64,000 nt of DNA. Source: Acytostelium subglobosum LB1 (taxonomy: Eukaryota; Evosea; Eumycetozoa; Acytosteliales; Acytosteliaceae). Both the position numbers and the translations under genes were made by a program. The notes under the pieces are model-generated. The model had not been told where the DNA came from and searched no databases. It saw only the letters and a list, made by a program, of their open reading frames with translations. Shown in pieces: positions 23,087-64,000 of the stretch (its first letter is position 1; every line of letters begins with the position of its first letter). Where the stretch lies: contig NW_012236520.1 of NCBI RefSeq assembly GCF_000787575.1, forward strand, positions 124,001 through 188,000, read 5' to 3'.

Positions 23087-23270
23087 TGATAGCATGATCA
23101 CCTGTCCTGGTCATGGTCAGTCAACTGTTGATTTCATCCAGTTGTCTGATCTGCCAGGACATTGTAACAATTAAATCGTACATCAAACAATCAGTGAGTG
23201 CACTCTATCAATCGATCAGTCAATCATTTTTCATGATCATGTTTCCAAAGTCAAAGAGAGAAGTAATGAG

Positions 23271-24319
23271 ATGGACACTTGTGAGATACATAATAAGAAG
23301 AATAGAGTTGTCTGTATCGATTGTAGCGTATTTATATCACGCTCAACACATGAAGCTCGTTAAATACGATGTTGTTGGATCATCATCCATGCCTCAAACA
23401 TATCGAGTCAAGATTGACCAGGTCAGATTGAACAACATCAAGAATCAGATCACAACATGTTTGAGGCTGGCTAGGTCTCCTCCAGCCCAAACAATCATTC
23501 CTCCCGAGTTCCAGAACTGCTTGGTATCTATGCTCAACAAAGATATGTCGCTGCTATCACTGGATACAATGAAGTGGACAAGGATTGAGAATGCATTCAA
23601 GAATGATATGTCCAGCTCCACCAATGCAATTGTCTACGCTCGTGGCAACATCTATGTGTTTGGTGGCAACACAACGTCATTATCATTAACATCATCTTAC
23701 ATGCGATACTCATTGGCTGAGAAACAATGCTATGAGGCAGAAATGCTTGGTATCCTTGGAGGCAGGGAAATCTCGGCCTGCTACGATGGAGTTCATCTAC
23801 CGAGTAGGCGGCAGCTTCCTGGATTGCTCTTTATTGTTGGATCGCGTTGACCGGTTCAGCATTGAAACTCAGCAGTTTGAACACGTTGGCTGTCTTCCAT
23901 ATGCTGTGAATGGTGCGGTTGCCCACTTCCACAACGACACTATCTATATCTATGGCGGGTTCGACGACGATGGGAATGATCATGATCACATGACATACAA
24001 CATACTTACCAAGGCCACCACAATTGACATCGAGGGCAACCTTGGCAGTTGCTTCGATGGCGATAACAACTTGTATATACTGACTTACTTGAAGGAGTTC
24101 TATCGATATGAACTATCAACACGAACATTGGTCAATCTGGCAGAGTATCCTAATGACGGAGGCACTTGTTATATAGAGTACGTGGACCGAGAGATTGGAA
24201 TCATCAGCATCGATGGCAAGGATAAAAACTATCAATACTCATTGGTTGATGACAAGTGGACATTGATGAATGACAATGATCAGAGGAGTTCGTGTCATGG
24301 TGTATGTTTGATTAGGTAG
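23271..24319 (+). pseudogene. B-box/kelch paralogue, internally deleted copy
   Basis: This is the first of three tandem relatives. It starts MDTCEIHNKKN and keeps half of the B-box (VVCIDCSVF). Near 23340 it jumps straight to the sequence that follows the coiled coil in the other copies (HMKLVKYDVVGSSSM). About 535 bp are missing relative to the second copy, and the junction is out of frame. A further five-base deletion relative to the third copy near 23788 breaks the propeller frame. The remaining kelch-like part is well preserved (IVYARGNIYVFGG, RVDRFSIETQQFEHVG, DTIYIYGGFDDDG, WTLMNDNDQRSS) and ends at the family stop after CLIR. The good preservation suggests that inactivation is recent. 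Confidence 0.8.
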
Positions 24320-24404
24320 CCATCCAAGCAGGCTTGATTCATGATCACTTGTGGCCTACAAAAAAATACAATCATTCACTTCACTTCACTTTCAATCACT
24401 TTAG

Positions 24405-24446
24405 TTAGAGGTAGAGGTAGAGGTAGAGATAGAGATAGAGATAGGA
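24405..24446 (+). repeat. Short AGAGGT/AGAGAT tandem repeat ahead of the second kelch gene
   Basis: About seven hexanucleotide units, changing from AGAGGT to AGAGAT, end a few bases before the ATG at 24452. The run would lie in the 5' untranslated leader. No counterpart is seen before the other two copies. Confidence 0.8.
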
Positions 24447-24451
24447 GGAAG

Positions 24452-26043
24452 ATGGACACTTGTGAGACGCACAACACCCAGAAGAATAGTGGTATCTGTA
24501 TCGATTGTGGAGTATTGATATGCTCTTTATGTGCAAATAAAGATCATACATTACATAGAAAGCAACATTTCAAAAGTGTAAAGGATAGTATCCAACGTAA
24601 AGATCACAAGTCTTTATGGTGCTCATCAAGGTTGGATCAGTTGTGGAGTACTCTACAACGGTGTGCAACATCATATCAATCAGTGGAGGAGACACATCGT
24701 CAAGTCAGTGATCATTATGAACAACTTTATAAACAATTGATGGCACAGGAGCACAAGGCCAAATCAACGATCAACACTCAGTTGTCAAGCATTCAATCAA
24801 CAATCAATGATATCATTCAAGAGATCAAGGATATCAATCATATCATCAACTTGGAGCATCCAACAACAACAACATCAAGTGATATGAGTAATCAAGAGGG
24901 TCTTGAACAAATGGTGGAGTCGATCAAGTCATGCTCATCACTTGATCAGTTCATCAACAACAACAAATCAATCATATGCCCACAAGCTGTTGACGACAAC
25001 CAGTCGTCATTGACATCGGCATTAAACGACAAAGAACTGTTGACCATGATCAAGAATCACACTCAACACATGAAGCTCGTTAAATATGACGATTTTGGCT
25101 CATCATCCATGCTCAAACCATATCAAGTCAAGATTGATCAGGTCAGATTGAACAACATCAAGAAACAACTCACATCTTGTCTGAGGCTGGCTAGTCCTCC
25201 GGTCCAAACAATCATTCCTCGCGAGTTCCAAAACTGTTTGGTCTCTATCAAGGACAAGCAGATGTATCTGCTATCACTGAAGACGATGAGATGGAACCAT
25301 ATCCAAGATGCATTCAAGTATGAAGTCTCTTGCCAACCCAACTCAATTGTCTACGCTCGTGGCAACATCTATGTGTTTGGCGGCAAGTCATCATCGTCAT
25401 CATCAAAATACATGCGATACTCATTGGCCGAGAAACAATGCTATGTGGCAGATATCATTGGCATCATTGGAGGCTGTTGCATATCTGTGTGCTATGACGG
25501 GGATGAGTTCATCTACCTTGTCGGCGGCGATATCTCGGATTTTAATCTTGATCGTGTTGACCGATTCAGCATTGACACTCAACAGTTTGAACACGTTGGT
25601 TATCTCCCATTCAGTGTGGCCTCCCCATTTACCCACCTCCATAACGACACGCTCTACATCATGAGCGGGTTTGATCCCTGTCGGGAGCCTGATCATCAAT
25701 TCATGGCATACAACATCCATACTGGTGCCAGCCGAGTTGATTTGGAGGATCGAATCTCATATGCTAGTTGTTTCGATGGCAATGACAGCCTGTATATACA
25801 TACTTTTGATAATGATTTCTTTCGATATTCACTGTCCAAACGAACTTTGGNNTCGATCTGGCAAGTTGTCCTTTGAAAGATGACTACCATCAAACGGTGT
25901 ACGTGGACCCAGAGATTGGAATCCTCAGCATCACTGGCAATGGTCAAAACTATCAATACTCAATAGTTGATGACAAATGGACATTGATGAAGGACCTTGA
26001 TCTGTGGAAACGATTTAACCATGGAGGATGTTTGATTAGGTAG
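24452..26043 (+). CDS. B-box zinc finger/coiled-coil/kelch protein, second copy, crosses an N gap
   Basis: The N-terminus holds a B-box-type zinc finger (CETHNTQKNSGICIDCGVLI, then CSLCANKDHTLH). A coiled coil follows (about residues 50-140), then a linker rich in Ser/Asn, then a kelch-type beta-propeller with blades such as NSIVYARGNIYVFGG, EFIYLVGGD, RVDRFSIDTQQFEHVG and DTLYIMSGF. Two N bases at 25851-25852 fall inside a conserved blade. Sequence on both sides matches the sister genes (SLSKRTL before; LASCPLKDD and WTLMKD after), but the frame only agrees if the two Ns stand for no real bases. The gene is therefore probably intact, about 530 residues, ending at 26041-26043. B-box/kelch proteins are a dictyostelid-expanded family whose roles are largely unknown; a scaffold or ubiquitin-pathway role is a guess. 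Confidence 0.85.
25851..25852. other. Assembly gap (NN)
   Basis: Two unresolved bases. Comparison with the tandem paralogues suggests a spurious join rather than missing sequence, because dropping them gives a continuous reading frame through the propeller. Confidence 0.9.
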
Positions 26044-26188
26044 ATGTTTTGTTATTACAGTATTAATAATAAATATATTATGGGATGATCTACTTTATGA
26101 CTGCATCATATTTTTTTTTTAGTCCACTTCAATCATTTTTCCCTGATGATCAATAAGTAGTTTGGAAGTTAACGAGAGATAGAAGAAG

Positions 26189-27805
26189 ATGGACACTTGT
26201 GAGACACATGACAAGAAGAATATTGTAGTCTGTATCGATTGTGGAGTATTGATATGCTCTATATGTGCACTCAGTGATCATAATGGACATAGAATGCAAC
26301 ATTTCAAAAGTGTAAAGGATAGTATCCAACGTAAAGATCACAAGTCTTTATGGTGCTCATCAAGGTTGGATCAGTTGTGGAGTACTCTACAACGATGTGC
26401 AACATCATATCAATCAGTGGAGGAGGCACATCGTCAAGTCAGTGATCATTATGAACAGCTTTATAAACAATTGATGGCCCAGGAGCACAAGGTCAAATCA
26501 ACGATCAACACTCAATTATCAAGCATTCAATCAACAATCAATGATATCATCCAAGAGATCAAAGATATCAATCATATCATCAACTTGGAGAGTTCAACAG
26601 CAACAGCAACTGCAACAACAACACCAAGTGAGATGAACAATCAAGAAGATCTTGCAAAAATTGTTGAGTCGATCAAGTCATGCTCATCACTTGATCAGTT
26701 CATCAACAACAACAAATCAATCATACAACCACGGGCTGTAGATGACAATCACCAGCAGGTGTCAATGGCATCGGCATTGAACGACAATGAACTGTTGACC
26801 TTGATCAAGAATCACATTCAACACATGAAGCTCGTTGGATATGAAGATATTGGTTCATCATCCATGCTCAAACCATATCAAGTCAAGATTGATAAGGACA
26901 AGCTGAACAGAATCAAGAAGGAGATCAGAACATGTTTGAGACTGGTTGGTCCTCCAGTCCAACCAATCATTCCTCCCGAGTTCCAAAACTGCTTGGTCTC
27001 CACCTGCAACAAAGATATGTTGTTGCTATCACTGGATACAATGAAATGGACAAAGATTGAGAATGCATTCAAGAATCAAGTGTCTGGCCAACCCAACTCT
27101 ATGGTCTACGCTCGTGGCAACATCTATGTGTTTGGCGGCGAGTCATCATCTTCAACAAGATACATGCGATACTCATTGGCTGAGAAACAATGCTATGAGG
27201 CAGAAATGCTTGGTGTCCTTGGAGGCAGCGAAATCTCGGCCTGCTACGATGGCAATGAGTTCATCTACTTGGTGGGTGGCGATACCCATCATAACTCCTT
27301 GGACCGTGTCGACCGGTTCAGCATTGACACTCAGCAGTTTGAAAAAGTTGGTCATCTTTCAATCGGTGTGACAGATGCGTTTACCATCTTCCACGACGAC
27401 ATGCTCTATATCGTTGGCGTGCTGGATGGATGTAGCGACCATTACATCACAGTGTACAACACGTATAACAATGTATGCAATATGGAGCAGAAGAAATTTG
27501 ATTTCTCAGTTGCCTGCTGTTTTGATGGAAACGACAACTTGTATATTCAAACACAAGAGAACAAGTTCTACAGGTACGAATTGTCGACACGAACAAAGGA
27601 AAAGCTGGCAAAGTATCCTGGCCAGGACGACTGTAGTTTTCATATGGCCTTTGTCAGTTATTCATTTGGAATCATTAGCATCAATGGCAGAGGGCAAAAC
27701 TATCTATATGCGGATTCAGGTAACACATGGACATTGATGAAGGATGACAATGATCAGTGGAGTCGTTCGTATCATGGTGGATGTTTGATTCAACAAAAAA
27801 TATAA
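26189..27805 (+). CDS. B-box zinc finger/coiled-coil/kelch protein, third copy, intact
   Basis: A single exon of 538 residues. The B-box (CETHDKKNIVVCIDCGVLIC, then CALSDHNGH) has the expected Cys/His spacing. A coiled coil follows (DQLWSTLQRCATSYQSVEEA to INTQLSSIQSTINDIIQEIK), then an Asn/Thr-rich linker and a kelch-type propeller (GNIYVFGGESSSS, EFIYLVGGDTHHN, DNLYIQTQENKFYRYEL). The zinc-finger and coiled-coil part is almost identical at DNA level to the second copy. The propellers differ more, so the copies have either exchanged sequence recently or diverged under selection at the propeller. A T10 run lies about 70 nt upstream. This is the only copy of the trio without a visible defect. 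Confidence 0.9.
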   Translation: MDTCETHDKKNIVVCIDCGVLICSICALSDHNGHRMQHFKSVKDSIQRKDHKSLWCSSRLDQLWSTLQRCATSYQSVEEAHRQVSDHYEQLYKQLMAQEHKVKSTINTQLSSIQSTINDIIQEIKDINHIINLESSTATATATTTPSEMNNQEDLAKIVESIKSCSSLDQFINNNKSIIQPRAVDDNHQQVSMASALNDNELLTLIKNHIQHMKLVGYEDIGSSSMLKPYQVKIDKDKLNRIKKEIRTCLRLVGPPVQPIIPPEFQNCLVSTCNKDMLLLSLDTMKWTKIENAFKNQVSGQPNSMVYARGNIYVFGGESSSSTRYMRYSLAEKQCYEAEMLGVLGGSEISACYDGNEFIYLVGGDTHHNSLDRVDRFSIDTQQFEKVGHLSIGVTDAFTIFHDDMLYIVGVLDGCSDHYITVYNTYNNVCNMEQKKFDFSVACCFDGNDNLYIQTQENKFYRYELSTRTKEKLAKYPGQDDCSFHMAFVSYSFGIISINGRGQNYLYADSGNTWTLMKDDNDQWSRSYHGGCLIQQKI

Positions 27806-28001: not shown

Positions 28002-31000
28002 TTAGACCTTAACCTATAGTGAAGGATGGTAAATATAAGCTCTAAGTTGTCTGGTAGTGAATCCATCATATACTTACGAATCCACCATGTATGGTCAATA
28101 AGGTGTTGAATAACTCGTTTGCCGTGGTGGTATTCAAAACGAAGCAGTACTTGCCTGTGGCATCCAGTTGGTTGTTGGGAAGATTGGGGTCTGAACCGAT
28201 GGGTCCAGGCTTATAGACGCCAGATGGGTCGGTCATCTTGATGCAGTAGTTTCCAGATGGGAGATCATTGAATCTGAATGCGTCATTGACTCTGGAGGTA
28301 TTAGTCTTGCCAGTTCGGATAACAACGCCACCTTCATCCTCCAAGGTGAGTTGAACATCAATGCCGTTGATCCTGACCTCAGCGGGATCATTCGAGTTGA
28401 CACCATCATTATTGGCATCAAAGAATGCATAACCCCTCAGTTCCAATGGTATCTTGGCAATCCATGCACCATGAATGGTCATCCAGGTTCCAAAGACTTC
28501 ATAGGCAAGTGTGCTGTCCAATGTGAAGCAATACTGTCCGTTCTGATCCAGATGACTGTTGGCAGTTTCTAAATTGTCTGGACCTCGGCGACCTGGGGTG
28601 TAAATTCCTGATGGATCAGTCATCTTGACACAGTAGTCACCTCCAGCGATATTCTCAAAGCGGATTGCATCGTTTCCATTGGTAATGTTTGTTACTCGAC
28701 TGCTTATGACTACTCCATTCTTCAACAGATCAACTATGATTCCTTTCATCCTGAACTGCTCTTGAGTATTATTATTGATTCCATTCTGTTTGATGATTGT
28801 GATTTTGAAGAAGGAGTCAATCATCGGTAAGTGTTCCAAACGAATATGAATAGATCAAACTCACCTTGTAGGCATCATAAAATGCATAGCCACGAATAGT
28901 GTATTCCTTGGTGGGTACCTATTGAATTGATCGATTGAGGAATGGTGGATTAGACAATGGTTTGATATGCTTGTCTATGATAAGTGACTTACGTATCCAG
29001 AGTGAATGGTCATCATGGTGTTGTTTGACTCTGTTGCAGTGGTGGAGTCCAATGTGAAGCAGTAATTGCCATCGGAATCAAGGTGATTGTTGGGAGAAGT
29101 TGTTAATTTGCCAATGGGGGCGGGCTTGTAGTTACCAGATGGATCGGTCATCTTGATGCAATACTTTCCAGATGGGAGATTGGTGAACTTGAATGCATTA
29201 TTGACCAGTTTGATATCAGTCTTGGCGGTGGCAATCACTGTATTGGTATCAACATAAGTGAGTTGGACATCAATGCCATTGATCCTGTACTCTGCTGGTG
29301 TGTTCTGGTTGGTGCCATCCTTGTTGTCATCATAGAAAGCATATCCACGGATTGTCATTGGAGTCTTGGCAACCCATCCACTGTGAATGGTCATCTTGGT
29401 GCCACTCGCTTCAGTTGCAGTTGTGCTGTCCAATGTGAAGCAGTACTGTCCATTGGCATCCTGCTGATTTGATGGACTAGTTGGACCTGGTATACCCTTG
29501 GGACCTGGGATGAACACTCCAGATGGATCAGTCATCTTGACACAGTAGTCGCCTCCAGCGAGGTTATCAAAGAAGAATGCTTCGTTGGTCTTGGACGTGT
29601 CTGTTGTTCCATTGCGAATGATGTTTCCATTGTTCAGGAGAACAACATTGATTCCTTTGATCCTGAACTCCGCTGGAATATTCTGATTGATACCGTCCTG
29701 TTGTTTGGTTTTTAGTTAGTATTTAAGGCAAAGCACAAACAGGCAGACTTGAGCAGTGCAGTCCACCACACTCACCTTGTTGTCATCATAGAATGCATAG
29801 CCACGGATAGTGTATTCCTTGGTAGCAACCTAATATATTGATTGATTGATATGGAGGGTGTTAGAATATGGTAGGCTACCTTGTGCTTCGGAGTCTACTT
29901 ACGAATCCAGAGTGAATGGTCATCATTGTGTTGCTTGATTCTGTTGCCGAGGTGGAGTCCAATGTGAAGCAGTACTTGCCATCGGAATCAAGGTGATTGT
30001 TGGGAGAAGTTGTTGATGTGCCAATGGGGGCAGGCTTGTATCTTCCAGATGGATCGGTCATCTTGATGCAGTACTTTCCTGCAAGGAGACCAACGAATTT
30101 GAATGCGTCGTTGACCTTGGAGGTATCAGTCTTGCCCGAACGAATAACAGCTCCACCAGCATCATCAGAGGTGAGTTCAACATCAATGCCATTGATCCTG
30201 TACTCTGCTGGTGTGTTCTCATTGCTGCCATCCTTGTTGTTATCATAAAATGCATAGCCACGGATTGTCAAGTCAGTTGTAGGGACCTTTTGGATACAGG
30301 TGCGTTAGACTGGTTGGATCAATTGTCAAATATGTGTGTTGGATAAGATATACTTACGTATCCGGAGTGGATAGTCATCATGGTGTTGCTAGCCTCGTTT
30401 GCAGTGGTGGAGTCCAATGTGAAGCAGTACTTGCCATCGGAATCAAGGTGATTGTTGGGAGAAGTTGCTGATGTGCCAATTGGAGCAGGCTTATATCTGC
30501 CAGTTGGGTCGGTCATCTTAATGCAGTACTTGCCCGATTGGAGATTGGTGAACTTGAATGCATCATTGACCTTGGAGGTATTAGTCTTGCCAGTTCGAAT
30601 AACAGCACCACCAGCATCATCAGAGGAGAGTTCAACATCAATGCCATTGATCCTGTACTCAGCAGGTGTATTCTCATTGGCACCATCTTTGTTGTCATCA
30701 AAGAAGGTATAACCACGTAGTGTAAACTCGGTTGTGGCAACCTGTTGAAATAGGAGCCGCGTTAAACAAAGGCAATAGGCAATATATATGATCAGTTGGA
30801 TTAGATCTACTTACGAATCCAGAGTGAATGGTCATCATGGTGTTGCTTGACTCTGTTGCAGTGGTGGAGTCCAATGTGAAGCAGTAATTGCCATCGGAAT
30901 CAAGGTGATTGTTGGGAGAAGTTGTTGATGTGCCAATGGGGGCAGGTTTGTATCTTCCAGATGGATCGGTCATCTTGATGCAGTACTTTCCAGATGGGAG

Positions 31001-34000
31001 ATAGGTGAACTTGAATGCATTATTGACCAGTTTGATATCAGTCTTGGCAGTGGCAATCACTGTATTGGTATCAACATAAGTGAGTTGGACATCAATGCCA
31101 TTGATCCTGTACTCTGCTGGTGTGTTCTGGTTGGTGCCATCCTTGTTGTCATCATAGAAAGCATATCCACGGATTGTCATTGGAGTCTTGGCAACCCATC
31201 CACTGTGAATGGTCATCTTTGTGCCATTCTCTTCAGTTGCAGTTGTGCTGTCCAAAGTGAAACAATACTGTCCTTTGGAGTCCTGCTGATTGGATGGACT
31301 AGTTGGACCGGGTATACCCTTGGGACCTGGGATGAACACGCCAGATGGATCAGTCATCTTGACACAGTAGTCGCCTCCAGCGAGGTTATCAAAGATGAAT
31401 GCATCATTGACCTTGGCCGTGTCTGTAGTTGCAGAACTAATGACTACCCAATTCCTCACGAGATCAACCTTGATTCCTTTGATCCTGAACTCCTCTGGCG
31501 TATTCGCATTGATTCCATTCTGTTTGTTTGTATATCGATGAGGGCATTAGTATATCAGTCCAGTAGTGAATAAAGCTGCTAAACACTATACCTTTTCAGC
31601 ATCATAGAAGGCATATCCACGAATAGTGAGGGGTTTAGCGGCAACCTAGTAGTTCATGTGTATGTTAGTGGGGCGGTCTTTCTTACATTCTTAAATGTGA
31701 TTGTACTTACAAAACCACCATTGATAGACATGCTGTTACCGTTGCTTTGGCTCAAAGTGAAGCAGTGCTTGCCATTGGAATCGAGATCATTCTTTGGCGC
31801 AACTGTGCCCATTGGACCTGGAACAAAGATTCCCTTGGGATCGGTCATCTTGATGCAGTACTTGTTAGGGAGAAGACCGTCGAAAAAGTACGCCATGTTG
31901 CCCTTGGTAGTGTCAGTCTTGCCAGTGGCCAAGACGTCACCAGCCTCATTGGTGAGCTCAACATCGATGTCCTTGATCCTGTACTCATGTGTTGTGTTCT
32001 GATCGTTGCCATCTTTGTTGTCATCATAGAATGCATAGCCGAGGACTGCGAGTGGGTTTTTGGCAACCCATCCACTGTGCACCGTCATCAAGGTGGCAGC
32101 GGCCTCGGTGGCAGTTGTGCTATCCAAAGTGAAGCACCACTCTCCATTGGCATCGAGTTGATTCACTGCTCCGGATCCTTGTCCCTTGGGACCTGGGATG
32201 AACACTCCAGATGGATCAGACATCCTGATGCAATAGTCGCCACCAAAGAGATTGGTGAACTTGAATGCATCATTGAACTTCTTGATGTCGGTTTCGGCTG
32301 AGCGAATGACAGCACCGTCCTTGACGAGTTCAACCTTGATGTCATTGATCCTGAACTCTGTGGCTGTGTTCTGATTGATACCATCCTTGTTGGCATCATA
32401 GAAAGCATAGCCACGAATGTTGTATGCTTTAAGGGGTACCTATCAATGTTGATTTGTGATGTCGGTTGGTCAGATGTTTGTGCAAGATCTTTCAATTAGC
32501 TAGGAACACTTACAAAACCACCATGGATGGTCTTCAACGTATTACCAGACTCAGTAGCAGTGGATGCATCCAAATTGAAGCAATAGACTCCATTGCTGCT
32601 GAGCTTGTTGATGGCTCCACTTCCTTTGCCAATTGGACCCGGGGTGTAGGAGTTGCTGGGAATTGGACATCAGTCATCCTGATGCAGTACTTGCCAGCCC
32701 GGACAGGAGAGAACACAAAGGCATTGTTGAGCTTGCTGGTGTCAGTATTAGCAGTGTTCAAAATATTGTTATTCTCATCCAATAGCTCAACCTTGATGCC
32801 ATTGATTCTGTATTCATCATTGTTGTTTTCATTGATGCCATCCTAATTGATTGATTGTTAGTTTGTATTATTATTATTATGATTGATTAATGGTATATAT
32901 AGATCTAACCTACATTGTTGGCGTCGAAGAATGCATATCCACGGATAGTGAACTTTGGGTCTTCCGCTCCAGTAGTGGCAGTGGTGGTAGTAGCCGTGGT
33001 CGTGGCAGGGGATGTAGTCGTGGCCGGGGATGTAGTTGTGGCCGGGGAGGTGCTGGCGGTGGTGGTTGCAGGGGACGTGGTAGTTGCTGTGGTCGTGACA
33101 GGGGATGTAGTCGTGGCAGGGGACGTGCTGGCGGTGGTGGTTGCAGGTGAAGTGGTACTCGCCGTGGTAGTGACAGTTGTGGACTGAGTGGTGGCTGGAC
33201 CCGTAGTAGAGGCTGTTGTGGTAACGGTGCTTACAGTGGTCGATGCACCCGCACTTGTGCTTGCAACTGTTGATTGGGTGGAGACTGTTGTACTGACAGT
33301 TGTAGACATGGTTGTTGGCTTGGAGGTCGTTGAAGCTGTAGTTGTGGCGGTAGTTGTTTGAGTGATGGTTGAGGCTGGACCAGATGTCGAGGCTGTTGTA
33401 GTGCCGGTGGTGCTCACAGTGGTAGACATAGTTGTTGGCCTGGATGTTGTGGACACAATGGTCGTGGCGGTAGTTGTTTGGGTGGTAGCAGTTGTGCTCA
33501 CGATCGTTGACGTCGGTACCGAGGTGGTTGTGCTCACTGTGGTGGATGCACTGGCAACTGTTGACTGGGTTGAGACAGTTGTGCTCAGTGTTGTTGACAT
33601 GGTTGTTGGCTTGGAGGTCGTTGTAACAGTTGTCGTGGCAGAGGTTGTTTGAGTGATCGTTGAGGATGGTCCCGTTGTTGATGCTGTGGTGGAGATAGTG
33701 GTGCTCACAGTCGTCGACATAGTTGTTGGCCTGGAAGTTGTGGACACTGTGGTCGTGGCGGTAGTTGTTTGAGTGATGGTTGAGGCTGGTCCCGTCGTTG
33801 ATGCTGTGGTGGAGAGAGTAGTGCTCACAGTTGTAGACATCGTTGTTGGCTTGGAGGTCGTTGAAATTGTAGTCGTGGCAGTAGTTGTTTGAGTGATGGT
33901 TGAGGCTGGACCAGTTGTCGAGGCAGTGGTAGAGGCGGTAGTGCTCACTGTGGTCGACATGGTTGTTGGCTTGGATGTCGTTGTGACTGTTGTCGTGGCG

Positions 34001-35125
34001 GAGGAAGTTTGGGTGATTGTTGAAGCTGGTCCCGTTGTCGAGGCTGTTGTAGTGGCAGTAGTGCTCACAGTGGTCGACATTGTTGAGGTCGATGCACCGG
34101 CAACTGTGCTGGCAACTGTTGACTGTGTGGAGACTGTGGTGCTAACAGTGGTTGACAATGTTGTTGACATGGTTGTTGGCTTGGACGTCGTTGTTACGGT
34201 AGTCGTGGCAGATGTTGTTTGAGTGATCGTTGAGGCTGGACCAGTTGTTGAGGCAGTGGTAGAGGCGGTAGTGCTCACTGTGGTCGACATGGTTGTTGGC
34301 TTTGAGGTCGTTGTAACCGTTGTCGTGGCAGATGTTGTTTGAGTGATGGTTGAAGCTGGTCCCGTTGTCGAGGCAGTGGTAGTGGCAGTGGTGCTCACTG
34401 TCGTCGACATTGTTGAGGTCGATGCACCGGCAACAGTGCTTGCAACTGTTGATTGGGTGGAGACTGATGTGGTTGCCACTGTCGAGACAGGCGATGTCAT
34501 CGATGACGACGTGACAATAGTGCTGGCCACTGTGGACTGTGTGGATATTGTCGTTGTTACCACAGTTGATGCTGTTTGAGTAGCAACAGTGGAGAAGGTT
34601 GTTGAGGCAACAGTGGACTGTGTTGACAACGTTGTGGTGGCCACCGTGGATGCAGAGGTGATGGGGACACATTGGGTATAACCATTGATGATCTGGCAGA
34701 TTGAACCATAGCCACATCTAATCAATGAACAAGGATTAGTTGTGCCTGAGGTGATCTGAGAGGAGGTGGTGCTGAGACATGTTGGGTTGCCTCGGACAAT
34801 GGCACAGATGGTGCCAACAGGACAATGGACGTTGGCACATGCTTCGAGAACAGTTGTTATTGTGGTAGTTGTGGTTGTTGGTGTTGAACATAACACGCAT
34901 ATTGCTTTACCGCAATCATCTTTACACTCATAGCCGACAGGACATGAGAATCCACGGCACAAGTCATGATCAGAGTCTAATGGAAAAGAGGAAAATAATA
35001 ATATTTGATAGTTAATGATATGTCTAGATTGGTTTTGATGGACAAAAATATTTACTCTGAGAAACAGTATGACCGATGTAGAGTGCGAACACCAACACCA
35101 AGAAGATACTAGTATGTAACTTCAT
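28002..35125 (-). CDS. Colossin-like secreted protein: signal peptide, Cys-rich head, mucin stalk, 11 SdrD/CnaB repeats
   Basis: Thirteen exons, read from high to low coordinate: 35056-35125, 32914-34976, 32514-32842, 31711-32439, 31592-31645, 30815-31519, 30358-30741, 29903-30286, 29776-29829, 28993-29697, 28865-28918, 28078-28785, 28002-28013. A signal peptide (MKLHTSIFLVLVFALYIGHT) is followed by three Cys-rich follistatin-like segments (CRGFSCPVGYEC, CANVHCPVGTIC, CSLIRCGYGSIC). Next come about 560 residues of Ser/Thr-rich stalk, then 11 repeats of the type IRGYAFYDDNKDG...YCIKMTDPSG...YCFTLDSTTA...MTIHSGFV. The repeats resemble SdrD B/CnaB domains of bacterial surface proteins and of Dictyostelium colossins. 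The D-x-N-x-DG loop would bind calcium. Total length is about 2083 residues. Exon 32514-32842 is one base short of keeping frame, near 32667-32680. No transmembrane anchor is seen at the end (VKV stop). Inferred role: cell surface or extracellular matrix. Confidence 0.88.
28078..32950 (-). repeat. Array of 11 SdrD/CnaB-type domain repeats encoded by modular exons
   Basis: Each repeat is about 125 residues and begins shortly after a phase-0 intron placed at the same codon (HSGF or HSGY, intron, V). Single-repeat exons (29903-30286 and 30358-30741) are both exactly 384 nt. Two-repeat units are split as 54 nt plus 705 nt (twice) or 54 nt plus 708 nt, with the small intron cutting inside the calcium loop. 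Several units are nearly identical at DNA level, for instance 28993-29480 and 30815-31300, indicating recent duplication or conversion. Confidence 0.88.
32970..34660 (-). repeat. Coding minisatellite (120-nt unit) in the mucin-like stalk
   Basis: The Ser/Thr-rich stalk contains a 40-residue unit starting GPASTITQTTSATTTV and continuing TTTSKPTTMSTTVSTT. The STITQ marker occurs seven times. Neighbouring copies near 33661, 33781, 33901 and 34021 are exactly 120 nt apart. Flanking parts have shorter STT/TSP periodicity. The region would be heavily O-glycosylated and is probably length-variable. Confidence 0.9.
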
Positions 35126-55121: not shown

Positions 55122-58100
55122 ATGTCTGAATCTATGCAGCTTGACGATGTCGCCAAGCAGCAAGAGAAGGGTATGTCTCACTCACTCACTCACTCACTCA
55201 TACAATCAAACAAAGTAATGAAGATCCAATACTAATCAATCAATCACATATTCAAATACCGACATAAACAGCAAAGAAATGGTTACAGCTAAACAATAAA
55301 AGATATAGCGAGAAGCGAAAGTTTGGCTATGTCGAACCACAGAAGGAGGACATGCCCCCATCACATCTGCGCAAGATCGTCAAGGATCATGGCGACATGT
55401 CAAACAAGAAGTTCAGACACGACAAGCGTGTCTACTTGGGCGCGCTCAAGTACATCCCGCACGCCATCTTCAAGCTGCTGGAGAACATGCCCATGCCCTG
55501 GGAGCAGGTCAGGAACGTCAAGGTGCTCTACCACATCACGGGCGCCATCACATTTGTCAACGAGATACCGCTGGTGATCGAGCCAGTCTACCTGGCGCAG
55601 TGGGGCAGCATGTGGGTGACGATGAAGCGCGAGAAGCGTGATCGTAAGCATTTCAAGCGTATCAAGTTCCCGCTGTTTGATGACGAGGAGCCTCCCCTCG
55701 ACTACGCCGAGAACATCCTCGACGAGGAGGTTGAGTACTCCATCCAAATGGACCTGGAAGAAGACGACGATGCCGCTGTCATCGACTGGTTCTATGACAA
55801 CAAACCATTACTCAATACCAAGCATATCAATGGACCTTCATACAAGTAAGTGATTGGATGGACCATGATGATTGATTGATTGATTGATTGACTAACATTC
55901 CTCAACTACATGTTATAGGAAGTGGAAATTGGACTTGCCAATCATGTCGACATTGTTCCGTTTGGCCTCACCATTGTTGAGCGATCTGACGGATCCAAAC
56001 TACTTCTATCTGTTTGATGACAAGTCATTCTTCACGGCCAAGGCATTGAATATGGCCATCCCAGGTGGACCCAAGTTCGAACCACTGTTCCGCGATATGG
56101 ACGACGGCGACGAGGACTGGAACGAGTTCAACGACATCAACAAGATCATCATCCGCCACAAGATCAGAACAGAGTACAAGGTGGCCTTCCCCTACCTCTA
56201 CAACAGCAGACCGCGCAAGGTTGCCATCCCCTTCTACCACGCGCCCAACATATGTTACGCCAAGTCGGACAACCCCGACCTGCCAGGCTTCTACTTTGAT
56301 CCGGTGCTGCTGCATCCAATCCCCTCGTACAAGACCGATCGCACGACGGCCTCTCCGTACGGTGACGACGACGATGACTTTGTGCTGCCCGACGACGTCG
56401 AGCCACTTCTGCCAGACACAGAGATGGACACAGTGGACACGCCTGCAGGCATTCGCCTGTACTGGGCACCCAAGCCATTCAATCAGCGATCGGGACTCAC
56501 TCGCCGTGCACAGGACGTGCCAATCGTCCAGGCGTGGTACAAGGAGCACTGTCCCCAGGCACACCCAGTCAAGGTGCGTGTCTCCTACCAGAAGCTGCTC
56601 AAGTGCTACGTGCTCAACAAGCTGCACCATCGCCCACCCAAGTCGCTCAACAAGAAGTACTTGTTCCGCTCGCTCAAGTCCACCAAGTACTTCCAGTCGA
56701 CCGAGATTGACTGGGTCGAGGCCGGTCTTCAGATCTGTCGCCAGGGCTACAACATGCTCAACCTGCTCATTCACAGAAAGAACTTGAACTACCTGCATCT
56801 GGACTACAACTTCTATCTCAAGCCCATCAAGACACTGACGACCAAGGAGCGCAAGAAGTCGCGTTTCGGTAACGCCTTCCATTTGTGTCTGGCTGCCGGC
56901 ACTCCAGTGTCGCTGAGCTCAGGCATTTCTTGTCCAATCGAGAGCATCGTGGCAGGTGATCGCCTGCAATCATGGGCAACACTGCCTTTCGAGTCGACGA
57001 CTGAAAAGAAAGTGTGCTACGAAGGTGTGGCGAGTGCCGCATTCCAAGTTCACGCTGAGCCACAGGCCGTCGTGCGCATCCACGGCTGGGACGGCTCCAC
57101 TCTTACATGCACTCCAACACATCCAGTGCTGGCCATTAGCAAGGAGGATAAGGAGCCACAGTGGATCCCAGCTGGAGATGTCACCTCTGAACACTCCATC
57201 ATATGTTCTGCCATTGGCACAGTGCTTGACGATCCCATTGCCGATTCAGCGTCAACCTACACGCTCGCTGGCTGGGGCCTTGCTACTCACAGATCGCACG
57301 TTCTGGCCTTTGCCCGCATACTTGGCGCTGCTCTCTCAGAAGGCAGCTCTCTCGCACACCACATGGATGTTCAGCAAGCGCAGGCTGATGTTCAGCTTCT
57401 TACAGGTCAAACAGGATCAGCGCGATACAGTGAGAATACATCGATCTGGAATCTAGATCTGCCAGCCACCCTCAAGAATGCCCTTGCTGGAGCATGCAAG
57501 ACAGCATCTGCTCAAGTTGTGCCCGATGTCATTCGCGCTGCACCATCGTCTGTACAACGTGAATTCCTTGCCGCCTGGTGGGGCAGTGTTGGAGCGTCAC
57601 CACGTTTGGTTGGCGATGGCTACCCAGTTGTTCCACTGTCGCTCCATTCACTTCGTGTTGCAAGCATTGACAATGACAAAATGGAGAAGGCGCAACACTT
57701 GGAGTCTTTCAAGTGGATGGCTGGATGTCTGCGAGATCATTTCGGAGTTCAATCTACCGTCGTTGAGTCGTATGCCGCCTCTGTCGAGAACAGGCCAGGC
57801 GTATTCCCCGTTGATCCATTGACCGCAACAGTCTTGACGACTCTGGAGCAGTGGATGCATCTCGCGCTGCGTCACTTTAGCGACAGATCCTTTACCAAAG
57901 AGACCCTGTACGAGCACATGCAGGACCAATGTGGAGACCTCATCACACAATCACAAGTCCAGCGCCAATTGAACCAGCTAGTGGATGCTGGTGTTGTGAA
58001 GAAGGATGCGACCTTGTACAGTGTTGTGGAGTCCTTGCCAGCAGTTCATATAACAGAGACGACAGTAGTCAAGCAATACTACCATCGCGTAGGATTGCGT

Positions 58101-61100
58101 CTACACAATCAATCCATCGAAACATTTGCCTCCTCAATTGGAGTCCGATATTGCTTGGAGAAGGCTAGTCGATGGGAGCTTGCTCGCCGATGGTACTCAT
58201 ACCGCCGCCTACTGCAACATCAACGATGGTCATTCATCAACACAGCACTGCAACAGTACATCGATACCCACCCAGACTTCCCCGACATGCGCGGACAAAC
58301 TCTACACGATAGCATCGAGTTCCCCAAGCCTCTCAACCGTCAAAGAGATTCCATCGAGTCATGTGTGCAATTCGCCACCGAGAGACTGAAGCAACAGTTC
58401 GCCTTCGTGCTTCCAGAGGCACCAGTAGACCGTGTGGTCATCAATCAGTATCTCCATGGACGAGTACAATTCGTTGCACTCGACAAGGTCAACGATGCAA
58501 CATTCCAATTCCCCAAGGCCCTCAACCTGCGCGAGTTTGCCGAATTGGTTGACCTTCCATTTGGCCAATGCACCACCCAGCTCTATCTGCCCGTGCTCTG
58601 TGTCGAGGAGCTCGCCGAGAAGGTCATGGTGTACGACATCACGGTCCCCGAGCACGAGAACTTTGTCGCTGCCGGCTTCGTTGTCCACAACTGCCGAGAG
58701 ATCCTTCGCATGACCAAGCTGGTGGTGGATACACACGTCAAGTACCGCCTGGGTGCGGCTGAGGCCTTCCAGTTGGCCGATGGTCTGCAGTACCTATTCA
58801 GTCACATCGGTCTCCTGACCGGTATGTTCCGTTACAAGTACCGTCTGATGCGCCAGATCCGTATGTGCAAGGATCTCAAGCATCTGATCTACTACCGCTT
58901 CAACACAGGTCCCGTTGGCAAGGGTCCAGGATGTGGATTCTGGGCGCCAATGTGGCGTGTGTGGCTGTTCTTCCTTAGAGGCATTGTGCCACTACTCGAG
59001 CGCTGGCTCGGCAATCTGCTGGCGCGTCAGTTCGAGGGTCGCCAGACCAAGGGCAACGCCAAGACCGTGACCAAGCAGCGTGTCGAGTCTCACTACGACT
59101 ACGAGCTGCGTGCCGCCGTCATGCACGACATCCTGGACATGATGCCAGAGGGTGTCAAGGCAAGCAAGGCCCGCACGATCCTGCAGCATCTCAGTGAGGC
59201 ATGGCGCTGCTGGAAGGCCAACATCCCATGGAAGGTGCCCGGCATGCCCATCCCCATCGAGAACATGATTCTTCGTTACGTGAAGAACAAGGCAGACTGG
59301 TGGACCAACGTGGCTCACTACAACCGAGAGCGTATTAGACGTGGCGCCACTGTCGACAAGACAGTCTGCAAGAAGAACCTTGGACGTCTCACGCGTCTAT
59401 GGCTCAAGGCGGAGCAGGAGCGTCAACACAACTACCTCAAGGACGGCCCATACGTGTCGGCCGAGGAAGGTGTGGCCATCTACACAACCACTGTTCACTG
59501 GCTCGAGAAGCGCAGATTCTCTTCCATTCCCTTCCCCCAAACAAGCTACAAGCACGACATCAAGATCCTCACACTGGCGCTCGAGCGTCTGAAGGAGGCC
59601 TACAGTGTGGCCTCGCGACTCAATCAATCACAGCGCGAGGAGCTCGTGCTCGTCGAACAGGCCTACGAGAACCCTCACGAGGCACTGGTGCGCATCAAGC
59701 GCCATCTCTTGTCGCAGCGTACGTTCAAGGAGGTGGGCATCGAGTTCATGGACATGTACACACATCTGATCCCCGTCTACGACGTGGAGCCCTTTGAGAA
59801 GATCACCGACTCCTACCTGGACCAGTACCTCTGGTACGAGGCCGACAAGCGACAGCTGTTCCCCAACTGGGTCAAGCCATCTGACAACGAGCCACCCCCC
59901 GTCCTGCTGCACAAGTGGTGCCAGGGCATCAACAACCTGGACGGCATCTGGGAGACGGCCGACGGACAGTGCGTCGTGATGATGGAGACCCAGCTCAGCA
60001 AGGTCTACGAGAAGATCGATCTCACGCTGCTCAACAGACTGCTGCGTCTCATTGTCGATCAGAACCTTGCAGACTACATGTCTGGCAAGAACAACATTGT
60101 GATCAACTACAAGGACATGAACCACACCAACTCGTACGGTCTGATACGTGGCCTCCAGTTTGCTTCGTTCATCTTCCAGTTCTACGGCCTGGTGCTCGAC
60201 CTGCTCATCCTCGGCCTGAACCGCGCGTTCGAGATGGCCGGTCCACCCAACCTACCCAACGCCTTCCTCACATACAAGGACGTCGAGACGGAGACCAGCC
60301 ACCCCATCCGTCTGTACTCTCGCTACGTGGACCGCATCCACATCCTGCTCAAGTTCTCGCACGACGAGGCGCGTGAGCTGATCCAGAAGTACATGTCCGA
60401 GCATCCCGACCCCAACAACGAGAACGTCGTGGGCTACAACAACAAGAAGTGCTGGCCACGCGACTGCCGCATGCGACTGATGAAGCACGACGTCAACTTG
60501 GGACGCGCCGTCTTTTGGAACATCAAGAACCGTCTGCCACGCTCGCTCACCACCATCGAGTGGGAGGAGTCGTTCGTCTCGGTGTACAGCCGCGACAACC
60601 CCAACCTCCTCTTCAGTATGGTCGGCTTTGAGGTGCGTATCCTGCCCAAGATCCGCACTCAGAACGAACAGCTCATCCCCAAGGACAGCGTGTGGAGCCT
60701 CCAGAACATGAACACTCGTGAGCGCACGGCTCAGGCATTCCTTCGCGTGGACAAGGACTCGATGGACCGCTTCGAGAACCGCATCAGGATGATCTTGATG
60801 GCGTCTGGCTCGACCACCTTCACCAAGATTGTCAACAAGTGGAACACGGCACTCATTGGTCTGATGACATACTACCGTGAGGCAGTTGTAGTGACGCGCG
60901 AGATGCTCGACATCCTCGTGCGCTGCGAGAACAAGATCCAGACCAGAGTCAAGATTGGATTGAACTCCAAGATGCCCAACAGGTTCCCGCCTGTAGTCTT
61001 CTATTGTCCAAAAGAGCTCGGGGGCCTCGGCATGCTCAGCATGGGCCATGTGCTCATCCCTCAGTCCGACCTGCGTTACTCGCGCCAGACCGACTCTGGC

Positions 61101-64000
61101 ATCACTCACTTCACCTCAGGTATGAGCCACGACGAGGACCAGCTCATTCCCAACCTGTACAGATACCTCCAGCCTTGGGAGCAGGAGATCAAGGACTCGC
61201 AGCGTGTGTGGGCAGAGTACGCGCTCAAGTACGAAGAGGCCAAGTCGCAGAACAAGAACCTCTCGATCGAGGATCTCGAGGACAGCTGGGACCGTGGTAT
61301 CCCCCGTATCAACACACTGTTCAGCAAGTCCAGACACACACTCGCCTACGACAAGGGATGGCGTGTGAGGACCGATTGGAAGCAGTACAATCTGATGAAG
61401 TCAAACACATTCGCATGGACCAATCAGAGACACGATGGAAAATTGTGGAACCTGAACAACTACCGCACTGATATGATCCAATCGCTGGGTGGAGTCGAAG
61501 GCATTCTCGAGCACACACTGTTCAAGGGCACGTACTTCCCCACATGGGAGGGTCTCTTCTGGGAGAAGGCATGCTTCTCCGCATCTACAAGTCTCATGGC
61601 TTTTGATGGACAACAGATAATGGCATCCAACGTCAATGTTGGCACTAGGTTTATGGGCGACGATGGAACACCTCGCACAGTCCAGCACATTGTCACTGGC
61701 ACCGACCGCCTGTACGAGGTCCACATCAGTGGTGTTTCAGACTTGGTTGTGACCAACAACCATATTCTTTGTTTGAAGCCATCGTCACGATTGAGTATCA
61801 CGTGGGAGGAAGATCAACAAGCCTACCGTGTCTACACCTTTGACGCGGACCACAAGCTCAGCACCAAGCAGTTCACTGTGCGTGTGAATGCTGACATCCA
61901 CTGCGCAAAGGAATCAACCGAGGATCAATACTTCAAGACTAGGGAGGAGGCAAAGGTCGCAGCAGAGAAGTATGCCGATGAAGTCGACAACATTGCCAAG
62001 GATACTCTGATCGAGATGACAGTGGATGAGTATGTCGCATTGCCAGAAGGAAGCAAGAAGTTGCTCATGATGTACAAACAACAAGCACATACTGGCAGCC
62101 TCAAGAGTGCCGACTGGTGTTTGTCCAGTATCGAGTCCATAACAGTCCGCGACACCCCCGAGCAGTATTATGGATTCATGGTCGATGGCAATCAGCGGTT
62201 CCTACGCGATGACTTCCTCGTCGTCCATAACTCTGGCTTTGAGGAGTCGATGAAGTACAAGAAACTGACACATGCACAGAGATCCGGTCTCAATCAGATT
62301 CCCAATCGTCGTTTCACATTGTGGTGGTCACCAACTATCAACAGGAAGAACGTCTACGTTGGATTCCAAGTTCAGCTCGATCTTACAGGCATCTTCATGC
62401 ACGGCAAGATTCCAACGCTAAAGATCTCGCTCATCCAGATCTTCAGAGCGCATCTCTGGCAGAAGATCCACGAATCGATTGTCATGGATATATGGTAAGA
62501 AGGATGACGACCTCTAGATCGATCTTCCAGTCACTAACACTCTCCTCCCCGCACTCGCCACTTTACAGCCAGGTATTCGATCAAGAATTGGACAATTTGC
62601 AGATTTCCGGCGTCAACAAGGAGGCCATCCATCCAAGAAAGTCCTACAAGATGAACTCATCCTGCGCAGACGTCCTGCTGCGTGCCGCTCACAAGTGGCA
62701 GGTGTCACGTCCATCAGTGTTGCAAGACACTCGCGACACCTACGACGGCTCCACCACACAATACTGGCTGGACATCCAGCTCAAGTGGGGCGACTTTGAC
62801 TCTCACGACATTGAGCGTTACAGTCGTGCCAAGTTCCTCGACTACACAATGGACCAGATGTCATTCTACCCCTCGCCCACTGGCTGTCTCATTGGCATTG
62901 ACCTGTCGTACAACATCTACTCAGCGTTTGGCAACTGGTTCCCTGGTGTCAAGCCACTGGTACAGCGCGCGATGGACAAGATCATGAAGTCCAACCCTGC
63001 GATGTACGTCCTGCGTGAGCGTATTCGTAAGGGTCTGCAGCTGTACTCGTCCGAGCCCACAGAGCCCTACCTCTCCTCGCAGAACTATGGTGAGCTGTTC
63101 TCCAACAAGATCATTTGGTTCATTGATGATTCCAACGTGTACCGTGTAACGATGCATCAGACCTTTGAGGGTAACATGACTACCAAGCCCATCAACGGTG
63201 CCATCTTCATCTTCAACCCGCGCACTGGTCAACTCTTCCTCAAGATCATTCACACCGATGTGTGGCTGGGCCAGAAGCGTCTGGGTCAGCTGGCCAAGTG
63301 GAAGACAGCCGAAGAGGTGGCGGCGCTCATCCGTTCGCTGCCCGTCGAAGAGCAGCCCAAGCAGGTGGTCGTTACGCGTAAGGGTATGCTCGACCCACTG
63401 GGCGTCCATTTGCTCGACTTCCCCAACATTGTCATCCAAGGCAGTGAGCTGCAGTTGCCCTTCCAGGCATGTCTCAAGATCGAGAAGTTTGGAGACCTCA
63501 TCCTCAAGGCCACCGAGCCCAAGATGGTGCTGTTCAACATATTTGACGATTGGCTCAACACAATCCCCTCGTTCACAGCCTTCCAGCGTCTCATCCTTAT
63601 CCTGCGTGCGCTGCACGTCAACATTGAGCGTACCAAGATCATTCTCAAGCCCGACAAGAACACGATCACACAGCCACATCACATCTGGCCCACTCTCACC
63701 GATCAGGAGTGGATCAAGGTGGAGGTCGACCTGAAGGACCTGATCCTTGCCGACTTTGGAAAGAAGAGCAACGTCAACGTCGCCTCGCTCACTCAATCCG
63801 AGATCAGAGACATCATCCTCGGTATGGAGATCTCAGCGCCAAGCCAACAGCGCGAGGACCAGATCGCAGAGATCGATCGACAGAAGAAGGAGGCCAGTCA
63901 GCTGACCGCCGTCACTGTCAAGACGACCAACGTGCACGGCGAGGAGATCATCTCGACCGCCACCAGTCCACACGAACAAAAGGTCTTCTCCAGCAAGACC
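55122..64000 (+). CDS. prpf8: Pre-mRNA splicing factor PRP8 precursor with two inteins (C-terminus beyond window)
   Basis: Exons 55122-55170, 55272-55845, 55919-62494 and 62569-64000+ encode 2877 residues in the window; 2055 remain after removal of two inteins. Similarity to human PRPF8 is near-continuous, for example [114 protein letters not shown] and [18 protein letters not shown]. It covers the N-terminal domain, reverse-transcriptase-like core, endonuclease-like domain and most of the RNase H-like domain. The MPN/Jab1 domain lies past the window end. PRP8 scaffolds the spliceosome's active site in U5 snRNP. The first exon ([17 protein letters not shown]) is short; the second begins in the conserved [18 protein letters not shown]. 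Inteins interrupt after precursor residues 530 and 2092. Confidence 0.98.
56886..58691 (+). mobile_element. PRP8 intein 1: 602-aa intein with degenerate LAGLIDADG endonuclease
   Basis: In-frame insertion between [10 protein letters not shown] and [11 protein letters not shown], which are adjacent in human PRPF8. It starts with Cys ([13 protein letters not shown], block A), has TPTHPVL (T76, H79, block B) and ends [16 protein letters not shown] then FVVHN (blocks F and G). The next extein residue is Cys. These are all residues needed for class 1 protein splicing. Between the splicing blocks lies a LAGLIDADG-like pair: [14 protein letters not shown] (140-153, acidic E152 kept) and [12 protein letters not shown] (225-236, preceded by [13 protein letters not shown]), where the expected catalytic Asp is Val235. 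The rest includes a possible winged-helix segment (about 350-395) and [20 protein letters not shown], which resembles the C-terminal part of other long nuclear inteins. Splicing looks intact; homing is probably lost. Confidence 0.96.
61572..62231 (+). mobile_element. PRP8 intein 2: 220-aa mini-intein at the classic fungal PRP8 site
   Basis: In-frame insertion between EGLFWEKA and SGFEESMK, adjacent in human PRPF8 and, from memory, the same site as the Cryptococcus/Aspergillus PRP8 intein. It starts [17 protein letters not shown] (block A), continues [18 protein letters not shown], has LVVTNNHIL (T61, H64, block B) and ends [20 protein letters not shown] then LVVHN, with Ser as the next extein residue. 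Residues about 75-190 hold no LAGLIDADG motif; the stretch contains [20 protein letters not shown], a linker type I associate with PRP8 inteins. The size and missing motifs indicate a splicing-only element. Its N-terminal block closely resembles the Cryptococcus neoformans PRP8 intein, which supports common ancestry. Confidence 0.96.

Follow-up and report, generated by a model that had tools for sequence, protein, structure and literature searches.

Two dissimilar inteins interrupt the PRP8 gene of a social amoeba

In a social amoeba the gene for PRP8, the core spliceosomal protein, is interrupted twice in frame, and both inserts are genuine inteins. The gene lies at the end of the 64-kb stretch of DNA that we analysed (the window, GC = 0.46), and very probably it encodes one long PRP8 precursor that contains two class 1 inteins with distinct ancestries. 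Judging from their sequences, both inteins are most likely splice-competent.

Results

Structure of PRP8 and borders of the inserts

PRP8 is encoded on the plus strand and starts with an ATG at position 55122, where exon 1 (55122..55170) was read from the sequence. It is followed by spliceosomal intron 1 (101 nt, 55171..55271), with borders placed by continuity of the extein, then by exon 2 (55272..55845), intron 2 (73 nt, 55846..55918), exon 3 (55919..62494), intron 3 (74 nt, 62495..62568) and exon 4 (62569..64000), which is cut at the window end at 64000. Introns 2 and 3 and exons 2 and 4 were placed from the joined CDS. All three introns are GT-AG, in agreement with the three visible introns counted in the original prediction. 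Most of PRP8, together with both inserts, falls in an open frame at 55896-62498 on the plus strand, and exon 3 houses both intein-coding inserts within this single frame. The Prp8 domains PROCN, RRM_4, U5_2 and U6-snRNA_bdg were recognised in the exon 3 product. The joined CDS has 2877 codons and 0 stops up to the window edge; the C-terminal part of PRP8 lies beyond 64000, outside the window, and these frame figures cover the part within it.

Translation, alignment of the exteins and profile matches place intein 1 (602 aa) at 56886..58691 and intein 2 (220 aa) at 61572..62231, both on the plus strand. With slashes marking the cuts, their borders read NAFHL/C...VVHN/CREIL and FWEKA/C...VVHN/SGFEE, which locates the two interruptions that had been claimed, each with a Cys start, a His-Asn end and then Cys or Ser. 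The claim that the flanks match PRP8 without loss of a residue was borne out as well, as alignment to the solved Prp8 chain 9r8v_A rejoins the protein at both junctions with 0 residues gained or lost (query 5-331 to 657-981, 931-1892 to 979-1940 and 2113-2199 to 1941-2027). What overlaps at the first junction is the Cys, present both as the opening residue of intein 1 and just after it, and the two-residue length difference in the first aligned stretch lies near query 137-145, far from the junctions. By alignment, the +1 Cys of intein 1 corresponds to residue 547 in 3jcr_A (2335 aa) and 622 in 3jcm_A (2413 aa), and the +1 Ser of intein 2 to residues 1507 and 1579, with positions derived from the alignment ranges and extended by one residue where needed. 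We take 3jcm_A to be the yeast Prp8 chain. The extein distance between the two inteins is 960 residues.

Removal of either insert leaves the host protein intact and the joined frame open. Each insert has the N-terminal Cys, a block B TxxH motif, the His-Asn end and the +1 Cys or Ser of a class 1 intein, and each matches at least one curated intein or Hint profile over its cut-off. When 5000 sequences were generated for each insert from its own first-order Markov model, an open frame arose in 0/5000 cases for intein 1 (mean 19.5 stops) and in 1/5000 for intein 2 (mean 8.9 stops). GC3 is 0.553 in intein 1 and 0.609 in intein 2, as opposed to 0.778 in the exteins, where windows of equal size never fall below 0.754 (602 codons) or 0.7045 (220 codons). 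The low intein GC3 fits foreign and weakly selected sequence alike.

There is next to no chance that we are dealing with spliceosomal introns left unspliced, their frames open by accident. PRP8 does have three true introns, and GT and AG are common; however, when each cut was slid from -12 to 12 bases, the shifts that keep the protein (0 to 4 for intein 1, -1 to 1 for intein 2) included none with GT...AG ends, and all of the in-frame GT/GC..AG pairs lying no more than 30 nt from both borders, 12 per insert, alter PRP8. Sites resembling a donor by the pattern GT[AG][AT]G[TA] number 1 in intein 1 and 2 in intein 2, and both inserts are coding, with matches to intein profiles. Removal of a whole insert as an intron giving exact PRP8 was ruled out for both by this border analysis. 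It is also very improbable that the locus arose through misassembly or is a pseudogene copy. The locus is known from one contig, but its exteins are open and highly conserved up to the window edge, and each border of the two inserts is precise to a single residue.

Intein 2 and the Prp8-a site

Intein 2 matches PF05203 (1.9e-21, 77.6 bits, cut-off 32.1), stays below the cut-off for PF14890 (25.7 of 35.8 bits) and gave no NCBIfam match at E up to 10. Against solved Prp8 inteins it scores 2.7e-21, and PI-SceI chains match it more weakly, from 6.3e-5. The fungal Prp8-a inteins 6owu_A, 6mwy_A and 6mx6_A, presumably all from Cryptococcus, are homologous to it over both splicing halves and likewise have no endonuclease. 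In 6owu_A and 6mx6_A the insertion residue is the same, with identical KA/C...HN/S borders. Since intein 2 shares these borders and is homologous to the solved Prp8 inteins, its sequence assigns it to the Prp8-a allelic group at fungal site a, which the available text of PMC6805012 puts within the 1585 loop of Prp8. Intein 2 differs from its fungal counterparts in its length of 220 aa, with about 60 more residues between block B and the element IEMTVDEY, in its amoeba host, and in being the second intein in one protein.

Block B of intein 2 was read from the translation as TNNH (residues 61-64, 61752..61763, plus strand). From the block B His to IEMTVDEY there are 82 residues, compared with 10-26 in 26/43 distinct viral inteins, the distance being measured only where a pattern found the IEMTVDEY element and the other 17 being left out. 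This comparison delimits an extra segment at 61779..62009 on the plus strand, about 60 residues in excess of the measured relatives. The segment is coding-like (GC3 0.623), and Pfam and PDB searches with it gave nothing meaningful. For an intein that lacks an endonuclease, such an addition within the splicing domain is unusual. That intein 2 hides a smaller intron of its own seems unlikely; the extra segment holds one donor-like site (61882), and there are 48 in-frame GT..AG pairs of at least 120 nt in and around it. Two ideas about the segment were set aside. A possible likeness of the segment to AP2-like DNA-binding domains, or to the part of PI-SceI that recognises DNA, found no support in Pfam or the PDB, and an apparent beta-beta-beta-alpha pattern came from a useless single-sequence AlphaFold model. 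Such models failed for both inteins (pLDDT 36.0 and 37.2).

An endonuclease is absent between the splicing halves of intein 2, where a short linker stands in the place at which the intein of a phage relative (locus L001) carries LAGLIDADG. Most likely the homing endonuclease was lost. Direct query of viral contigs with intein 2 returned no relatives. The best alignments to phage helicase inteins show about 40% identity over half its length, and identity to the L001 intein is 30% over the whole alignment. These helicase inteins of Jersey-like phages, such as Salmonella phage Shelanagig (L001), have a Hom_end_hint splicing domain like that of intein 2, whereas the L001 intein differs in its LAGLIDADG domain and in the absence of the extra segment. 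Some of the viral relatives (L010, L018, L039 and L057; 138-156 aa) also have no endonuclease. As a separate observation, the phage helicase inteins (L001:1501-2541 and L002-L057) and the eukaryotic Prp8-a intein have splicing domains of the same Hom_end_hint kind, a cross-domain link.

Intein 1 and its putative endonuclease relic

Intein 1 matches PF14890 (2.1e-11, 44.3 bits, cut-off 35.8) and, over blocks F and G at 58629..58691 (plus strand), TIGR01443 (5.8e-7, 29.5 bits, cut-off 15.6). TIGR01445 (18.4 of 24.5 bits) and PF01079 (13.7 of 29.7) remained below their cut-offs. Block B is TPTH (residues 76-79, 57111..57122, plus strand), which is weakly aligned with solved intein chains.

Between the splicing blocks, intein 1 carries a stretch resembling a LAGLIDADG endonuclease that has degenerated. 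Two candidate motifs were found on the plus strand by eye, by comparison with the known motif: motif 1 at residues 138-154 (57297..57347), in which the acid E152 is kept, and motif 2 at residues 222-238 (57549..57599), with Val235 at the expected acid. It is this Val, at the place where the second acid is expected, that leads us to read the endonuclease as decayed. Motif 1 lies inside a match to NF038098 (residues 1-240, 5.3e-5) and motif 2 inside a match to NF038162 (residues 205-295, 2.4e-5); both are NCBIfam models of intein-bearing proteins, and both matches are far below the whole-protein cut-offs. With E up to 10 allowed, Pfam gave no LAGLIDADG match in intein 1, and the putative relic thus rests on the weaker NCBIfam matches together with the motif reading.

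After the endonuclease part come about 280 residues to which profile and PDB searches gave no firm assignment. A stretch at 57819..58088 on the plus strand is winged-helix-like (DUF4423 at residues 312-401 and TIGR02147 at 318-416, both below cut-off), and the region 57822-58577 had no PDB match with E <0.25. Two 24-nt stretches of intein 1 (58315-58338 and 58504-58527) are 83% alike and encode FPKPLN (479-484) and FPKALN (542-547). The pair is perhaps an internal duplication in this unexplained part, or chance.

Direct query with intein 1 returned no relatives in viral or genome contigs. Its matches are weak and come from phages and plasmids only, among them 10 Vibrio phage records with 27-30% identity over residues 1-96 or 1-81 (E 0.007-0.03); its splicing blocks weakly resemble phage and bacterial Hint domains. 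A two-sequence alignment used as query found none in genome contigs and 4 viral loci, in whose listed reading frames nothing corresponding to the central region of intein 1 was seen. NF038098, searched in one viral record, gave 0/1 matches, and PHROGs returned weak matches only for both inteins.

Relationship between the two inteins

The original prediction held that the elements differ in size, endonuclease status and site and are probably independent invasions. The differences stand: 602 compared with 220 aa, a candidate decayed LAGLIDADG compared with none, and insertion at 547 compared with 1507 in 3jcr_A numbering. BLASTP of intein 1 against intein 2 found no similarity (best E 2.9), and their best profile families differ, PF14890 for intein 1 and PF05203 for intein 2. 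For a further comparison, a viral profile was built from 32 full-length inteins (330-410 aa) out of 43 distinct sequences. These came from the 51 loci with an N-terminal match, after 6/57 loci (L001-L057) that matched only at the C end were dropped; each intein was read to the first [HR]N[TSC] after residue 120, and some thus end too early. Intein 2 fits this profile (hhalign E 2.4e-21). For intein 1 the hhalign result was E 0.056 and misplaced, and hmmsearch aligned no more than its opening 27 residues (1.9 bits). Given the different profile matches and the lack of mutual similarity, independent invasions are the best reading, and the original prediction is supported on this point by the BLASTP result, the different families and the fit of intein 2 alone to the viral profile. 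Because inteins diverge fast, dissimilarity favours a separate origin without proving it.

Neighbouring genes

Neighbours of PRP8 in the window are B-box/kelch, F-box/WD40 and SNase-Tudor genes and an actin frame, of which 325 residues were searched. The best chains for the actin frame are 3chw (Major actin) and 1nlv (Actin), followed by chimeric actins, 4efh and animal actins; we take 3chw and 1nlv to be Dictyostelium actins. Judged by these matches, the host is likely to be a social amoeba. Three adjacent open frames at 23098-27805 have common kelch-like segments, and the first of them, shorter than the rest, seems to be incomplete. The third, the only one of the three scanned, has Pfam B-box and kelch matches. 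The three are probably tandem paralogues by sequence, and two ambiguous bases (25851-25852) lie within a kelch-like frame. On the minus strand at 28066-35121, four frames contain repeats such as RGYAFFDANNDG, and one also has a long Thr/Ser-rich stretch. To us they are reminiscent of dictyostelid colossins; the frame at 32905-35121, the only one of the four scanned, had no Pfam match at 0.001. Across the 64-kb window, no Rfam family exceeded its gathering score, and ARAGORN, run with the bacterial code, found no tRNA.

Discussion

The two-intein PRP8 is a striking double case of an already known phenomenon, PRP8 inteins. That they occur in fungi and other eukaryotes, as the original prediction stated, agrees with the available text of two papers. 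One describes seven Prp8 intein sites, a-g, of which g, in the dictyostelid Acytostelium subglobosum, lies at the N-terminal end of the protein (PMC6805012). The other, a 2018 survey, lists Amoebozoa with Prp8 inteins and makes PRP8 the nuclear gene richest in inteins, with 104 in its Table 1 (PMC5784728). Because site a is well known and a dictyostelid PRP8 intein is published, the case is less surprising than the original prediction judged. Double occupancy of PRP8 is not mentioned in the text, figures and supplements aside, of the open-access intein papers PMC6805012, PMC5784728, PMC1635734, PMC1508164, PMC8529194, PMC4334915, PMC7919456 and PMC5114724, as far as that text was available.

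A precedent for double occupancy may nevertheless exist. InBase lists PRP8-1 and PRP8-2 for the chytrid Batrachochytrium dendrobatidis. Prp8 inteins were also reportedly described in further protists in a 2013 paper.

Intein 1 can be set beside three known systems, each as described in the available text of its source. The Prp8-g intein of A. subglobosum is likened to it by description only, as an intein of a dictyostelid host near the N terminus of Prp8 (PMC6805012). The RPC2 intein of Dictyostelium discoideum (464 aa) likewise sits in a dictyostelid nuclear gene, runs from Cys to His-Asn followed by Cys and has a possibly degenerate LAGLIDADG endonuclease, but its host gene belongs to RNA polymerase III and it is a single intein (PMC1635734). 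The large HEN(+)extra Prp8 inteins resemble intein 1 in having long regions of unknown origin beside an endonuclease, but they are fungal and exceed 800 aa, whereas intein 1 has 602 aa (PMC5784728).

Splicing in the cell, decayed mobility and two invasions are what we infer for this locus. We hypothesize that PRP8 is translated as a single precursor in which each intein would fold its own Hint domain. Cys1 of each intein would attack the upstream bond, the ester would move to the +1 Cys (intein 1) or the +1 Ser (intein 2), and the terminal Asn would cyclise as the PRP8 flanks rejoin. Continuous PRP8 would result once this had happened at both sites, which are separated by 960 extein residues. 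Intein 2 would be of the eukaryotic Prp8-a kind, and intein 1 a separate Hint intein, weakly bacterial- or phage-like.

Three other readings bear on the origin, use and novelty of the pair. A single invasion, with the same intein later copied to a second PRP8 site, has very little to commend it: the two inteins share a gene, and the available text of PMC5784728 considers spread within genomes for eukaryotic inteins, but there is no sequence similarity between them, their best profile families differ, and the viral Hom_end_hint profile fits intein 2 and not intein 1. We think it unlikely that the inteins are kept as regulators of PRP8, for example by braking the supply of spliceosomes in response to redox state or metals. 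According to the available text of PMC6805012, the Prp8 intein of Cryptococcus is inhibited by copper and zinc, solved Prp8 inteins from the same site are homologues of intein 2, Cys1 is present in both inteins and neither has a clear working endonuclease; however, precise intein loss is hard, and persistence therefore needs no benefit. Finally, there is an even chance that the locus is already public as A. subglobosum PRP8, with intein 1 at site g, intein 2 at site a and nothing new. Intein 1 is N-terminal, as is the reported site g, Amoebozoa had Prp8 inteins on record by 2018, and the GC of the window (0.46) is in keeping with Acytostelium; against this, the published text, as available, names one site only in A. 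subglobosum (PMC6805012, PMC5784728).

With the preferred reading of two separately acquired class 1 inteins in one precursor, we speculate, as a long shot, that the pair could act as a two-key lock in which both dissimilar inteins must fire before the spliceosome core assembles. The pair would then be kept as a stress-sensitive splicing brake, with the role of sensor or nucleic-acid contact falling to the added module in intein 2 or to the winged-helix-like stretch in intein 1.

With two dissimilar inteins in one essential protein, independent and ordered splicing can be addressed in one amoeba. The same amoeba bears on what keeps inteins in place when they have no clear working endonuclease, inertia or use, and on whether site a in amoebae originated by descent or by transfer. 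It adds a further oddity, a mini-intein with about 60 additional residues in its splicing domain.
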